From contig CP017039.1 in NCBI GenBank assembly GCA_001717545.1, forward strand, positions 1,674,001 through 1,738,000: a stretch of 64,000 nucleotides of DNA, written 5' to 3'. Below are positions 6,780-58,947 of the stretch, piece by piece. Position numbers and translations under genes: made by a program. The DNA comes from Anaerolineaceae bacterium oral taxon 439 (GTDB lineage: Bacteria > Chloroflexota > Anaerolineae > Anaerolineales > Anaerolineaceae). The first letter of the stretch is position 1. Each line of letters starts with the position of its first letter. Under the pieces are notes generated by a model. That model was not told where the DNA came from. It saw only the letters and a program-made list of their open reading frames with translations, and did not search any database.

Positions 6780-8192
6780 CTACGGAAAATCCGTTTTCAG
6801 CCATGTATTCGGGTCGACGTAAATCCCGTTAACGCGGATTTCCCAATGCAGGTGCGGCCCGGCAGAGCGGCCGGAATTCCCGATCAGCCCGATGACCTCG
6901 CCGCGCTTTACTTCCTGTCCGACGGTGACGACCGCTTGAGATTGGTGCGAATAGGTCGAGTATACGCCCCAGCCATGGTCAATAATCGTGTGAAGCCCAT
7001 GAATCGGAAGCTCGGAACAGAAGAGGACTTTCCCGTCCGCAGCGGCGTAGATATTGATATTATTCGCGGTCCAAACGCCGAAGTCAAGCCCTGTGTGGTA
7101 ATTTTTGTAATCGGTATTATTGTACGTCCTGCGGTTTCCGAAACCCGACGCAATATATGGCTCGTCGACAGGGTAGGACATTCGCGTTCCCCATTGCCGG
7201 ATCGGCGACGTCTCGGTCACGCCTTCGAGCGCCTGTCGGTCAATATCGTTGCTGTGATCTTCGAGAGTAGCGGCGTCGACGCCGGAAACGACCTCGTAGG
7301 TAAACAGGCCCGGCTCGATCAGGATTTTCTGGTCGAGCGTAAAGGTTTCGCCGTCTTCAGCAACCGCTCGCAGGCTGATATCGCTCAGGCCGGTGGTCTG
7401 GTCGGCTTTGATCCCGATCATCGCGATCTTCCTGTCGGGAGTCTCTGGATCGTTGAAAAAGCGAAGCGCGGCTCCGGCGAGCGACCCCGAGAGGTCGAGA
7501 TTCTTCGCCTGATCGATTTCCAATACATAGGTCTCGCCCTGAACGAGCGGAAGGCTCCGCAATTCGAGCCTGGTAAACAGCGGCGTAATACTTTGAGCGG
7601 TTGCGTCGCTGCCTTCCGCCGATCTGACAAAAACGAGCTGGCGGTCGGTACGGTCCCAGTTGCCGGCAAGCTGATTTATTTTCTTTAATTCTGCCGGATT
7701 GACGTTCTGCTGAACCGCTTTTTCGATTAGCGTTTCTCCCTCGGCGAACGAAGAGGCGGGGGCGTAGGGCGACGCTTCTTCGGATTCCACGAGGATAATC
7801 GTTTTTCCGATATAAAACTCTGAACGGCTGGCGACATGATTGATTCGAAGGATGTCCTCCGCGCTCATTCCGGACCGGATCGCAACGCTTGAGAGCGTAT
7901 CGCCGATCTGGACAGCGTCGGTTACGAGCTTCCCGGACAGCCCTTTTAGCGAGGGGATTTTAATCTGATCGCCGATCGAAATCGTATCCGCGTTGGCAAT
8001 GTTGTTAATATCGATAATTTCCTGAACAGTTGTTCCAAATCGAATCGCGACCAGCGAAAGAAAATCGCCGGATTCAATCTGATAAATCGGGTAAACGTCG
8101 TTATTTTGAGCGAAAACGACTGCGGCCGGGAGAAGAATAGCGGCGAAAAGAATCGGGAAAAAATGAGCGCGGCGGATCAGCTTGTTCAACAT
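6780..8192 (-). CDS. Secreted LysM-containing M23 metallo-endopeptidase
   Basis: About 470 residues from the ATG at 8192. A signal peptide (MLNKLIRRAHFF, hydrophobic stretch, AxA-type site at VFA) is followed by two clear LysM domains (YPIYQIESGDFLSLVAIRFG; VQIGDTLSSVAIRSG) and a weaker third. A beta-rich middle section follows, then a C-terminal peptidase M23 domain with GFGNRR, the zinc ligands H-x3-D in YHTGLDFG, and HLHWE. Such enzymes cut cross-links in peptidoglycan outside the membrane. The frame opens at 8213, but a TACAAT lies between that ATG and the one at 8192, which also gives a proper signal peptide, so 8192 is preferred. Downstream of the Xer gene on the same strand. Confidence 0.88.
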   Translation of the reverse strand: MLNKLIRRAHFFPILFAAILLPAAVVFAQNNDVYPIYQIESGDFLSLVAIRFGTTVQEIIDINNIANADTISIGDQIKIPSLKGLSGKLVTDAVQIGDTLSSVAIRSGMSAEDILRINHVASRSEFYIGKTIILVESEEASPYAPASSFAEGETLIEKAVQQNVNPAELKKINQLAGNWDRTDRQLVFVRSAEGSDATAQSITPLFTRLELRSLPLVQGETYVLEIDQAKNLDLSGSLAGAALRFFNDPETPDRKIAMIGIKADQTTGLSDISLRAVAEDGETFTLDQKILIEPGLFTYEVVSGVDAATLEDHSNDIDRQALEGVTETSPIRQWGTRMSYPVDEPYIASGFGNRRTYNNTDYKNYHTGLDFGVWTANNINIYAAADGKVLFCSELPIHGLHTIIDHGWGVYSTYSHQSQAVVTVGQEVKRGEVIGLIGNSGRSAGPHLHWEIRVNGIYVDPNTWLKTDFP

Positions 8193-54774: not shown

Positions 54775-55494
54775 TCAGGCCTTCCTGAAGAGTTCTTTTT
54801 CGATCGCGGCCTGATCCAGCTTCTTCATACAGAAGAACCAATCGTAGCAATGCGTTTCGCCGCTTTGATCTCCCATGCGCTCCTTCGCAACGCCGCAGGA
54901 ACCCGCGGGCGGAACGATCACGTCGTCGCCCGGGCGCCAATCCGCCGGCAGCGCGACGTCGAACGCATCCGCCGTCTGCAAGCCGACGACGACGCGGTAC
55001 AATTCGTCGAAATTCCGGCCAAGGCTCAGCGGGTAGTAAATAATCGTTCGGATAACGCCCTTCGGATCGATAACGAAGACGGCGCGAACCGCTCGCGTGC
55101 TGCTTTCGCCCGGCTGGATCATCCCGTATTTCGTCGCAACTTCCATCGTGATATCTTCGATAAGCGGGAACCTGACTTCAACGTTCTTCATTCCCTTATA
55201 TTCAATTTTTTCGTTAATTGTACGCAGCCAGGCGATATGGCTGTACAGGCCGTCGACCGACAGGCCGACCAGCTTCGTATTAACTTTCGCGAATTTCTCT
55301 TCGAGCGACGCGAAGGTCATGAATTCCGACGTGCAGACCGGAGTAAAGTCAGCCGGATGGCTGAACAGGATAACCCAGCTGCCGCTGAAGTCAGCAGGGA
55401 AATTGATATCGCCCTGCGTCGTAACGGCGTGGAAGGAGGGAGCTTTATCGCCAATACGCGGCATCATCACAACTTGATTTTCAACAGATTCCAT
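54775..55494 (-). CDS. Peroxiredoxin, Prx6/AhpC-TSA type
   Basis: 239 residues. Thiol peroxidase that destroys hydrogen and organic peroxides. The peroxidatic Cys is in HPADFTPVCTSEF near residue 53; the catalytic Arg lies in RAVFVIDPKGVIR. The long C-terminal domain (VVGLQTADAFDVALPADWRP) marks the Prx6/archaeal-type class, with extra cysteines near the end (GSCGVAKERM, HCYDWFFC) that could resolve the sulfenic acid. GGAGAAG precedes the ATG. The promoter carries a near-perfect PerR box, so peroxide induction is likely. Confidence 0.94.
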   Translation of the reverse strand: MESVENQVVMMPRIGDKAPSFHAVTTQGDINFPADFSGSWVILFSHPADFTPVCTSEFMTFASLEEKFAKVNTKLVGLSVDGLYSHIAWLRTINEKIEYKGMKNVEVRFPLIEDITMEVATKYGMIQPGESSTRAVRAVFVIDPKGVIRTIIYYPLSLGRNFDELYRVVVGLQTADAFDVALPADWRPGDDVIVPPAGSCGVAKERMGDQSGETHCYDWFFCMKKLDQAAIEKELFRKA

Positions 55495-55584: not shown

Positions 55585-55620
55585 TTGTAATGATTATAAC
55601 CTGGCTGGCAGGAATGTCAA
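55585..55620 (-). promoter_or_regulatory. Peroxiredoxin promoter with overlapping PerR box
   Basis: On the minus strand: TTGACA (55615-55620), 16-bp spacer, TATAAT (55593-55598). Across the -10, TTATAATCATTACAA (55585-55599) matches the Bacillus PerR consensus TTATAATNATTATAA at 14 of 15 positions, counting the free middle base. A bound repressor would block the -10. Confidence 0.75.
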
Positions 55621-55688: not shown

Positions 55689-55717
55689 TTGACAATATAG
55701 AATTAAAGTTCTATAAT
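55689..55717 (+). promoter_or_regulatory. Consensus promoter with LexA-like operator for the PolB cassette
   Basis: TTGACA (55689-55694), 17-bp spacer, TATAAT (55712-55717): every position is consensus. TATAGAA (55696-55702) and TTCTATA (55709-55715) form a perfect 7-bp inverted repeat that fills the spacer and enters the -10. Its core GAATTAAAGTTC (55700-55711) differs by one base from GAAC-N4-GTTC, the Gram-positive-type LexA box. The ATG at 55725 is 7 nt behind the -10, so the message should be leaderless. Confidence 0.75.
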
Positions 55718-55724
55718 TTGAAAT

Positions 55725-56321
55725 ATGAAACCGCTCGCCGCTATCCAACCGCAGCTTCCGCTTCCGTCCGACCGGCAATCAGGATTATACACCATTTCCG
55801 GCCCGCATGCGGCCGGGACGCCGCTGCTGCAGCTGGCCGCGCATCTCGCGCTGAACCGGACCGTCCGAATCCTCGACTGCGGAAATCGCGGCGACATGTA
55901 CCGGATCGCGAAAACGCTGCGCGGCCTGACGCCGGATCCGGCCGCGGTGATGAGCCGCGTCCTCCTGTCGCGCGCGTTTACCTGTTATCAGGCGGAAGCG
56001 CTGCTCAGGAACAGCCGCGACCTGGCGCGGACGCCAATCCTGGTCCTGGATCTTCTCGCGACGTTTTTTGACGAAAGTGTCGGCACGTCTGAGATCGGCC
56101 GCCTGTTCCGCGATACGCAGGATCACCTGAAAACGATCGCGGCGCAAAATTTCGTTATCGTCAGCGTCAGCCCGCCCGGCGAAGCCACGGCGGAACGCGC
56201 CGCCCTCTGGAACGGGCTGACGCGGCTGTCAACAGGATTTATCCAACTGGATGAGCGGAGCGAAGCGCGGGACGGCGAACGGGTCCGGGAACCGCCCGCG
56301 GACCAGCTACCGTTATTCTAA
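55725..56321 (+). CDS. Degenerate RecA/RadA-like protein with C-terminal beta-clamp motif
   Basis: 198 residues. The start (LYTISGPHAAGTPLLQLAAH, residues 21-40) looks like a RecA-type P-loop strand and helix, but the Walker A Lys and Ser/Thr are gone (GPHAAGTP, residues 26-33). A Walker-B-like strand TPILVLDLLATFFDE is near residues 103-117, then NFVIVSVSPPGEATAERAAL as in RadA-like folds. The last five residues are QLPLF, which fits the bacterial sliding-clamp-binding pentapeptide QL[S/D]LF-like consensus; PQLPLP occurs near the N-terminus too. Probably a non-ATPase accessory factor linking the polymerase to the clamp, comparable in logic to ImuA. First gene of the cassette, under the LexA-like promoter. 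Confidence 0.75.
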   Translation: MKPLAAIQPQLPLPSDRQSGLYTISGPHAAGTPLLQLAAHLALNRTVRILDCGNRGDMYRIAKTLRGLTPDPAAVMSRVLLSRAFTCYQAEALLRNSRDLARTPILVLDLLATFFDESVGTSEIGRLFRDTQDHLKTIAAQNFVIVSVSPPGEATAERAALWNGLTRLSTGFIQLDERSEARDGERVREPPADQLPLF

Positions 56322-56359: not shown

Positions 56360-56704
56360 ATGGGAAGAACGATCCGATCCGCGTCACAAACCTGGTATGA
56401 AGAAGAGAAAGCGTTAGCGCGTTTTGCACGCGCGCTGCGGCGCGAAGATCAGCGCTGTTTAAGCGAATTGCTGGATCTTTCCAGGCTGCATATCGCCGAA
56501 GCCTCTTACGCCGCCAACCTGTATCCGATGGATATCTTTCTGATCAGTATGCTGATCGAAACGTATAAGAAACTGGTCCGATCGGAAGCGAAGGTTTCGG
56601 AACTCTGCGCAAGGCTCGGAATCGAAGCGCCGCAGGAACGCGAACTCCCGATTTCGACCGATATTCAATCCCTGATCGCCTCGCTCGGAGACGCGGAGGA
56701 CTGA
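56360..56704 (+). CDS. Small helical protein of the PolB cassette
   Basis: 114 residues, predicted mostly alpha-helical (SQTWYEEEKALARFARALRR, LSELLDLSRLHIAEASYAAN, MDIFLISMLIETYKKLVRSE). Not recognised as a named family. GGAGG (56349-56353) precedes the ATG at 56360. It lies 38 bp after the RadA-like gene and 5 bp before the polymerase gene, so it is cotranscribed and likely a subunit of the same complex. Confidence 0.75.
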   Translation: MGRTIRSASQTWYEEEKALARFARALRREDQRCLSELLDLSRLHIAEASYAANLYPMDIFLISMLIETYKKLVRSEAKVSELCARLGIEAPQERELPISTDIQSLIASLGDAED

Positions 56705-56709
56705 CCGGA

Positions 56710-58947
56710 ATGAACGAGACCTCCCGGGGCTGGCTTCTGGATCTTTATGAAGATGAAAACGACGGCGTCCGCCTCTGGTTCATCCTTGAAGACGGAACGC
56801 GCCGAATGTTCCGGCAGCCGTTTCAAGTCGCGTTTTACCTCGCCGGCGCGACGGACCGGCTCCATCAATGCTGCCTTGAGCTGCGAAACGCGCCGGGCGT
56901 ACTGAAACTCAGCCGCGCCGTCAAGCAGGACGTTTTCAAACCGGATCCGATCTGCGCTTTAGAAATATGGACCGATAATCCGACGCGGCAGGCGGCGCTC
57001 TTCCGCCGGCTCAAAAAACGCTACGCCGAGCTGACGTTCTACAACACCGATCTCCCTGTCCAGATTCATCACGCCGCCCGATACGGAACGTTCCCGCTGG
57101 CGTACTGCGAGCTGCGTTATGAAAAGGAAAGCCGGACGCTGGAAACGATCCGTATCCTGAATTCGCGCTGGGACGTCGCGCCGGTCCTGCCGCCCCTACG
57201 CGTCATGACGATCGAACCCGACCGTAACCCGGCGCAGGAAGCGCCGCGCTTTCTTCGGATCGAAACGGCCGGAACCCGTCCGCAGCGCGTCAGGCTCGCC
57301 GAGCGGAAAAAAATTATTCCAGCGCTGAATCAGGCCATCGCCGCGCAGGATCCCGACCTGATCCTGACGCAAAATGGCGACGACTGGCTGTTTCCCTTCC
57401 TGCTCGACGTAGAAAACGAGCGTGCGGACGCCGCGCCGGCGGAAAAGCTCGTGATCAGCCGCGATCCCGAACGCGGGGTCCAGAAAAAAAAAGAAACCAG
57501 CTATTTCTCCTATGGGCAGGTTATTTACCGCAGCTGTGAAGCGCATCTTTTTGGACGCTGCCATATCGATACGCAAAACACACTTCTCTGGAAAGATTAC
57601 GGGCTGGACGGGACGATCGAAACCGCCCGCGTAACCGTGCTCCCGATCGAACAGGCCGCCCGCGCTTCGTCGGGTTCCGGAATCTCCGCGATGCAGATGC
57701 TGACCGCGCTCGAACGCGGGATCCTTGTCCCGGAGCAGAAGCAGCAGGTCGAAACGATTAAAACCGGCCCCGAGCTCATCCGTTCCGACCGCGGCGGGCT
57801 CATCTATCAGCCGGTCACCGGCTTTCATACCAACGTCGCGCAGCTCGATTTCACCTCGATGTACCCCGCGATTATTATCAACAGCAATATCTCGCCGGAG
57901 ATTCCGCTCCCGGACGGACTGGAAGCGGCGTCGCCGGAACTGGGCGTCGTCCCTGCGACGCTGAAACCGCTGTATGAAAAACGCGTTGAACTGAAACATA
58001 AGCTCCTGACGATCCCCGATAAACACGGAGCGCTCTGGAAAAGTTACGCCGCCCGGGCTTCCGCGCTGAAATGGCTGCTGGTCGTCTGCTTTGGGTTTCT
58101 CGGCTATAAAAACGCGCGGTTCGGACGGATCGAAGCGCACGAAGCGGTAACGGCCGGCGGGCGCGAGGTCCTGATGCGCGCGAAGCAGGTCTGCGAATCG
58201 ATGGGTTTCCGCGTGCTGCATATGTACGTAGACGCGCTTTGGATCGCGAAGCCCGGCTGCCGAACGGTCGCGGATTTCGACGACGTCCTCGCCGAAATCT
58301 CCCGCCAGACGCGGTTGCTGATCTCGTTGGACGGGATTTATCGATGGGTCGCGTTCCTGCCGTCGCGCGCGAACGACCGCGTTCCCGTTCCGAATCGATA
58401 TTTTGGCTGTTTTCAGGACGGGAGCCTGAAAATCCGCGGGCTGGAACTCCGCCGGCATGACAGCCCGCCCTGGGTCGCCGGCGTCCAGAAACAGATCCTG
58501 AACGTTCTCGCCTCCGCCTGGGACGTTCGGCAGATTTCCGACCTGCTCCCGAAAGCTTTCCGGATTTTCGTCGACGCGCTGAATTGCCTGAACGAAGGGA
58601 ACGTCGCGATCGAGGAATTGATCCTGACGATTCGGATCAGCCGCGAGCCCGAAGCGTATAAATCGCCGACCGCCGCCGTCCGCGCCGCGATGCAGCTTCA
58701 GGAACGAACCGGGAAACGCACGGCGCCGGGGCAAAAGGTGCGGTTCCTGTTCGTTGAAAGCGAATCCGGCGTTTATAACTGGGATCAGCCGATCGAGCAA
58801 TATCCGCCCGAACCGATCGACCGTCCGAAATACCGCGAGCTGCTAGCCCGCGCGGTCGGCTCGGTTCTTTGGCCATTCGGCATTAAAGCGAAAGATCTCA
58901 GCGACTACGCAAATAATTCATTGCAGCTGCGCTTCGAGGGTGTGTAA
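56710..58947 (+). CDS. PolB2-like family-B DNA polymerase with altered catalytic motifs
   Basis: 745 residues. Palm motif A is intact (LDFTSMYPAIII, Asp380). Motif B reads ALKWLLVVCFGFLG: Lys454 is kept, but the usual N-S is V-V. Motif C reads YVDALW (506-511) in place of YGDTDS: Asp508 is kept, the second Asp is Leu510. In the exonuclease half, the DxE of ExoI is RIE (FLRIETAG), and ExoII (TQNGDDWLFPF) lacks the second acidic position, so proofreading is unlikely. This combination matches the description of PolB2 (Dpo2-like) polymerases, archaeal members of which are damage-inducible; whether it still polymerises must be tested. The C-terminal ~300 residues are thumb-like and well conserved in character (VRFLFVESESGVYNWDQPIE). 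Confidence 0.85.
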   Translation: MNETSRGWLLDLYEDENDGVRLWFILEDGTRRMFRQPFQVAFYLAGATDRLHQCCLELRNAPGVLKLSRAVKQDVFKPDPICALEIWTDNPTRQAALFRRLKKRYAELTFYNTDLPVQIHHAARYGTFPLAYCELRYEKESRTLETIRILNSRWDVAPVLPPLRVMTIEPDRNPAQEAPRFLRIETAGTRPQRVRLAERKKIIPALNQAIAAQDPDLILTQNGDDWLFPFLLDVENERADAAPAEKLVISRDPERGVQKKKETSYFSYGQVIYRSCEAHLFGRCHIDTQNTLLWKDYGLDGTIETARVTVLPIEQAARASSGSGISAMQMLTALERGILVPEQKQQVETIKTGPELIRSDRGGLIYQPVTGFHTNVAQLDFTSMYPAIIINSNISPEIPLPDGLEAASPELGVVPATLKPLYEKRVELKHKLLTIPDKHGALWKSYAARASALKWLLVVCFGFLGYKNARFGRIEAHEAVTAGGREVLMRAKQVCESMGFRVLHMYVDALWIAKPGCRTVADFDDVLAEISRQTRLLISLDGIYRWVAFLPSRANDRVPVPNRYFGCFQDGSLKIRGLELRRHDSPPWVAGVQKQILNVLASAWDVRQISDLLPKAFRIFVDALNCLNEGNVAIEELILTIRISREPEAYKSPTAAVRAAMQLQERTGKRTAPGQKVRFLFVESESGVYNWDQPIEQYPPEPIDRPKYRELLARAVGSVLWPFGIKAKDLSDYANNSLQLRFEGV

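Follow-up and report, generated by a model that had tools for sequence, protein, structure and literature searches.

The genome of Anaerolineaceae bacterium oral taxon 439 carries a cassette for PolB2, a family-B DNA polymerase of the archaeal branch, behind a consensus promoter that is overlapped by a palindrome, and the question raised by this locus is whether that promoter is controlled by an SOS-type repressor. Genes for LexA are enriched near bacterial polB2, from which a damage response has been inferred (PMC11791011, PMC4104785); the available text of these two papers describes no operator alongside the lexA-polB2 neighbourhood, and that of PMC12926913 mentions PolB2 without LexA. No publication was found on a LexA operator at polB2, on its leaderless start, or on LexA boxes in Anaerolineae (subscription journals lay mostly outside the search), and no paper was found on the SOS response of this bacterial group. 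Here, we analyse a stretch of 64,000 nucleotides (the window; GCA_001717545.1, contig CP017039.1, positions 1,674,001 to 1,738,000) together with lexA, recA and orthologous operons, and read the locus, with a probability of about 0.85, as the SOS-controlled promoter of an iRadA-PPB2-PolB2 operon in an Anaerolineaceae-type bacterium.

The cassette is a bacterial PolB2 "mutasome" operon as known from the literature. Its three genes lie on the same strand in the order iRadA-PPB2-PolB2 (Table 1), and the features given in the available text of PMC11791011 for the bacterial operon are an MGRT start, a Walker-A-less RadA-like protein and replacement of the first Asp of DxD. The window shares the gene order, the PPB2 MGRT, the Walker-A-less RadA-like protein and the DxD substitution, as far as the available text of PMC11791011 and PMC4104785 goes. 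Among 91 operons counted, 85 have the MGRT start of PPB2, as does the window, and motif C of PolB2 aligns with the P. abyssi polymerase sequence VLYIDTDGLY, with Tyr as the first residue of DxD. Sequence-level support for iRadA is weak (RadA match, E 0.0013); its AlphaFold2 model (mean pLDDT 87.8) retrieves RAD51-complex chains and RadA ATPase domains with Foldseek (E about 2e-7 to 3e-7), and the Walker A motif GxxxxGK[ST] occurs in 0/40 aligned rows; these results agree with a RadA fold and a predicted inactivated ATPase. In the available text, an enrichment of lexA genes near bacterial polB2 is reported (PMC11791011, PMC4104785), whereas the lexA of this genome is not adjacent but lies about 1.27 Mb from the cassette, and no candidate regulator gene was recognised beside the cassette within the window.

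Table 1. Promoter, palindrome and genes of the polB2 cassette (positions in the window)
Feature	Position	Strand	Basis
-35 hexamer TTGACA	55689..55694	+	sequence; invariant in 10/10 aligned genus sequences
-10 hexamer TATAAT	55712..55717	+	sequence
Full inverted repeat TATAGAA-N6-TTCTATA	55696..55715	+	sequence
Putative LexA-type operator core GAATTAAAGTTC, abutting the -10	55700..55711	+	sequence and orthologous boxes
iRadA-like gene, 198 aa, first cistron, predicted leaderless	55725..56321	+	RadA/Rad51 fold, no Walker A
PPB2-like gene, 114 aa, N-terminal MGRT	56360..56704	+	sequence; motif as in available text of PMC11791011
PolB2 gene, 745 aa, family-B polymerase	56710..58947	+	motif C VLHMYVDALW

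The preliminary description had claimed a perfect promoter, a perfect 7+7-bp inverted repeat, a core one base from GAAC-N4-GTTC and a start codon 7 nt after the -10, and the sequence bears out all four. TTGACA-N17-TATAAT spans 55689-55717, and the arms TATAGAA (55696-55702) and TTCTATA (55709-55715) flank the six nucleotides TTAAAG. The core GAATTAAAGTTC departs from GAAC-N4-GTTC by a single C to T mismatch in its left half and is placed between the hexamers in the register TTGACA-ATATA-GAATTAAAGTTC-TATAAT; TTGAAAT then separates TATAAT from the ATG at 55725. With spacers of 15-19 nt, the exact promoter pattern occurs twice in the window, against 0.02 expected by chance, and perfect promoters with spacers of 16-18 nt number 21 in the genome (9 forward, 12 reverse; reversed control 0). 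The perfect promoter is not unique to the cassette, because the second one in the window sits in the same intergenic region: TTGACA-N16-TATAAT at 55593-55620 (minus strand) is divergent and faces a peroxiredoxin gene (54775-55494, minus), so that two consensus promoters stand back to back. Elsewhere in the genome, perfect promoters also occur as two identical pairs, with about 100 nt between the members of each pair (G000:C1:2685419-2685574 and 2874941-2875096), possibly before duplicated rRNA operons. Another perfect promoter, at G000:C1:2768000 (L007:1501-1562), contains the palindrome TATAGAATGATATTCTATA and precedes TetR-like and then SDR-like genes (named by eye), probably an autoregulated operon.

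GAAC-N4-GTTC is the Gram-positive LexA motif according to PMC3323433, and the sites described here share with that type of box the core, a position within the promoter and a box at lexA itself. Profile search of this genome yielded one LexA_DNA_bind match and one RecA match. The lexA promoter reads TTGACG-GC-GAACAGTTGTTC-TGA-TATAGT, with an exact box in the spacer, and the recA promoter reads TTGCAA-AGTCC-GAACATCCGTGC-TACAAT, with a box one mismatch off that has the same register relative to -35 and -10 as that of the polB2 operon. The preliminary description had proposed that the same palindrome should stand before lexA and recA; when this was checked, the GAAC/GTTC core proved common to all, and the outer TATA arms were absent from those two promoters. 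Among 51 lexA loci, one (L110) had no LexA match and 50 were scored, giving 41 exact boxes, 4 one base off and 5 without a box. Within the window's genus the box is exact in 8/13 lexA genes, and the five lexA genes without a canonical box belong to genus members of one sub-clade (G041, G042, G045, G046, G047), whose recA genes likewise have none (lexA, L112, L113, L116, L117 and L118; recA, L135-L139). In this sub-clade, TAGAACAAnnTAGAAAA-like stretches lie past the lexA -10 and TATAATnTGTTCTA-like stretches ahead of several recA genes. Across the genus, a one-off box stands between -35 and -10 of recA in 7/13 genes and not in the other 6, one of which (L134) has an exact box farther upstream, outside the promoter.

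On the protein side, the LexA stretch STSLVDYY is identical in all genus members read, and LexA keeps both motifs typical of a self-cleaving LexA, GDSM with its Ser and TLK with its Lys, which we take to hold the catalytic residues. The cleavage dyad in the genus is Ala-Ser, not Ala-Gly, and this was counted against the SOS reading. Over the LexA proteins as a whole (L009, L108-L127, L078-L107), the dyad is Ala-Ser in 26/50, the window's genome included, and Ala-Gly in 22, with 2 cut off.

PolB2 was matched in 112/147 genomes of the family and in 55/301 genomes drawn from across the phylum; in the phylum sample, many matches were weak ones to other family-B polymerases. From these, 114 loci were taken (65 family loci, 40 more for breadth of genera and 9 from the phylum sample), and the operon sample covers these fetched loci rather than all 112 family genomes with PolB2. 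After removal of 16 duplicates, 5 loci without an iRadA match and 1 with too short an upstream region, 92 operons remained, window included; the named relatives are Anaerolineaceae/Leptolinea metagenome-assembled genomes, and the operons are related by descent, so that counts from them are not independent. In another family of the order, full-length PolB2 is encoded twice in a single genome (G265:C6:137410-139506 and G265:C10:119077-121167).

Within 200 nt of the iRadA match, 35/92 operons have an exact box and 60/92 a box with at most one mismatch, with 4.6 expected from dinucleotide shuffles (L023 is among the 60 through a tRNA-like match, its promoter box being two-off). When the first gene of the operon was taken as reference and a box together with a sigma-70-like -35 and -10 was required, 77/92 operons passed (49 exact, 21 one-off, 7 two-off), as did 2/92 coding stretches and 5/92 reversed upstreams used as controls. 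The 15 failing operons comprise 4 exact and 4 one-off boxes without a good promoter, 5 two-off boxes outside the promoter and 2 with none, and exact boxes at the operon are found in other families of the order and class as well. Loss of the box at iRadA in distant genera was considered and rejected, being mostly explained by an extra first gene: a LuxR-type gene of about 139 aa with a GerE helix-turn-helix (Pfam E 4e-14 and 7e-15 for two example proteins) precedes iRadA in 26/92 operons (e.g. L140, L142 and L184, in the last ahead of an iRadA match on the minus strand, 4431-4018), mostly behind a LexA-type box. It is absent from the window's operon, and in L141 and L165 the box occurs twice, before the LuxR gene and before iRadA. 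The motif is present in the promoter itself, in front of the organism's own lexA and recA and at orthologous promoters, and the suggestion made at the outset, that an SOS-type repressor acts here, gains support from the lexA and recA boxes, the 77 orthologous promoters and the conserved geometry.

Within the genus the operator is degenerate. Ten aligned upstream regions share TTGACA, AGAA and TTCTATAAT without variation, while the flanks vary and little else is common, and the left half-site of the 12 genus operators reads GAAT nine times, GAAA three times and never GAAC, with the right half-site (read on the other strand) GAAC in 7 and GAAT in 5. This left half sets the site apart from the Gram-positive-type box. 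By a matrix built from the relatives' lexA boxes, the polB2 site scores 5.35 bits, against 19.3 for the genome's own lexA and 9.4 for its recA, and ranks 15th in the window. A sequence match alone is insufficient, because the best-scoring box, an exact GAACAGTTGTTC at 8024-8035, lies inside a LysM/M23-peptidase-like coding gene. The genome holds 72 exact boxes, of which only that of lexA stands in a good promoter, and no wider regulon was recovered from them. Given the genus half-site pattern and the unchanged LexA stretch, the polB2 site may be read as a LexA operator in which one half-site has weakened; from the degenerate left half-site, an operator weaker than that of lexA is predicted, and hence some basal or early expression.

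DinB was considered as a co-regulated polymerase and rejected. The genome has one Y-family match, and of 20 genus loci, 9 lacked a detected start motif and 11 were scored; a box with at most one mismatch was present in 2 of these 11, in neither case between -35 and -10. The dinB-like gene of the window's genome (L290, IMS motif at 1497) is apparently leaderless (TATAAT-AGAACGT-ATG), and its promoter has no full LexA-type box.

If LexA control has been lost in the genus, the palindrome could instead be the operator of another repressor, of the TetR family or some other palindrome-binding kind. The inner C/G of GAAC/GTTC is gone from the left half in 12/12 genus operators and from the right in 5/12, while the outer AGAA/TTCTA is invariant, and the similar palindrome TATAGAATGATATTCTATA stands in a perfect promoter before a TetR gene. 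That site, however, has a half-site distance of N5 rather than N6, and its TetR gene is unlinked to the cassette, beside which no regulator gene was recognised; the window's operator retains a perfect GTTC half, and orthologues in other genera have exact LexA boxes at the same promoter position. Another repressor is on this evidence distinctly unlikely. DdrO/IrrE-type control was set aside as a further candidate, its motif being different from GAAC-N4-GTTC; the E. coli LexA motif is different too. It is very improbable that no repressor acts at all and that an ordinary strong constitutive promoter owes its palindrome only to an AT-rich spacer that mirrors the -10. The low matrix score would fit such a promoter, as would the frequency of the arms: TAGAA-N6-TTCTA occurs at 4 places in the 2.95 Mb genome against 3 for the reversed-pattern control, because of which the palindrome alone is statistically unremarkable and its rarity was rejected as evidence. 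What is remarkable about it is its position in the promoter and its conservation, and the half-sites are kept over tens of orthologues though the spacer is otherwise free, with coding and reversed controls near zero.

The LexA-operator reading leaves the form of the message to be considered. A TANNNT hexamer ending 5-8 nt before the start codon, next to the box, is found in 50/92 operons, and 31 of these 50 read exactly TATAAT-6-ATG; the window entered this count via an overlapping TAATTT, its actual -10 being TATAAT at 7 nt. There is no Shine-Dalgarno sequence between the -10 and the ATG of iRadA, the alignment column of its N-terminal Met is conserved to at least 90%, and PPB2 has a Shine-Dalgarno-like GAGGAGG. 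A -10 placed 6-7 nt before the start, with no Shine-Dalgarno, is the sequence pattern of a leaderless mRNA, and the first cistron is accordingly predicted, on these grounds, to be leaderless, with a near-zero leader conserved among orthologues. In the available text of PMC3160421, leaderless genes make up 4.0-5.7% in 4/12 Chloroflexi genomes and in bacteria a TATAAT-like signal precedes the start by about 12 nt, which the TATAAT spacing at iRadA resembles. That a LexA operator is followed instead by an ordinary short leader, or by a downstream start codon, is unlikely: lexA and recA of this genome do have leaders with Shine-Dalgarno-like sequences, and the box-to-start distance is longer in some relatives, but the recurrence of TATAAT-N6/7-ATG, the empty interval before the ATG and the conserved Met column argue against it.

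With LexA as the repressor, the operon would work as follows. In an undamaged cell, LexA would occupy GAATTAAAGTTC between the -35 and -10 of this perfect sigma-70 promoter and exclude RNA polymerase; upon DNA damage, RecA-stimulated self-cleavage of LexA would release the promoter, giving a strong burst of transcript predicted to start at the ATG or one base earlier. Translation of iRadA would begin directly on the leaderless message, that of PPB2 and PolB2 at internal ribosome sites, and the products may form a multisubunit, mutation-prone translesion polymerase of archaeal type. A comparable arrangement is that of the SOS-inducible polB (Pol II) and umuDC (Pol V) of E. coli, which are LexA-controlled accessory or translesion polymerases, Pol II also being of family B; unlike Pol II, the PolB2 of the window belongs to a different family-B branch (archaeal PolB2) and has a leaderless operon and a RadA-like partner. 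The operator-promoter, its conservation, the leaderless start and the LuxR-type leading gene elsewhere are new relative to the published mutasome operon. The finding, though solid, fits what the published lexA-polB2 neighbourhood link led one to expect; its less expected parts are the one-sided weakening of the operator, the predicted lack of a leader and the variants led by a LuxR-type gene.

A wider joint reading is tentative, with some chance of holding in full. The LexA-controlled translesion polymerase throughout the Anaerolineae would then be the archaeal-derived PolB2 mutasome, not DinB, expressed via a conserved leaderless SOS promoter; in this genus, selection for early or partial induction would have degraded one side of the operator (GAAT/GAAA); in the sub-clade the LexA target would have been rewritten with the recognition helix unchanged; and elsewhere a LexA-controlled LuxR-type leader may add a second tier of control.

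The tie between bacterial PolB2 and the SOS response that was found in the literature is one of gene neighbourhood, and the conserved operator makes it a directly testable claim. The orthologous operators, with their graded half-sites, offer a ready-made series along which LexA affinity could be followed, and the conserved zero-leader start marks this message as a candidate leaderless SOS transcript. The operator also points to the conditions under which a translesion polymerase would be induced in these bacteria, and suggests that they may make PolB2 mainly after DNA damage.
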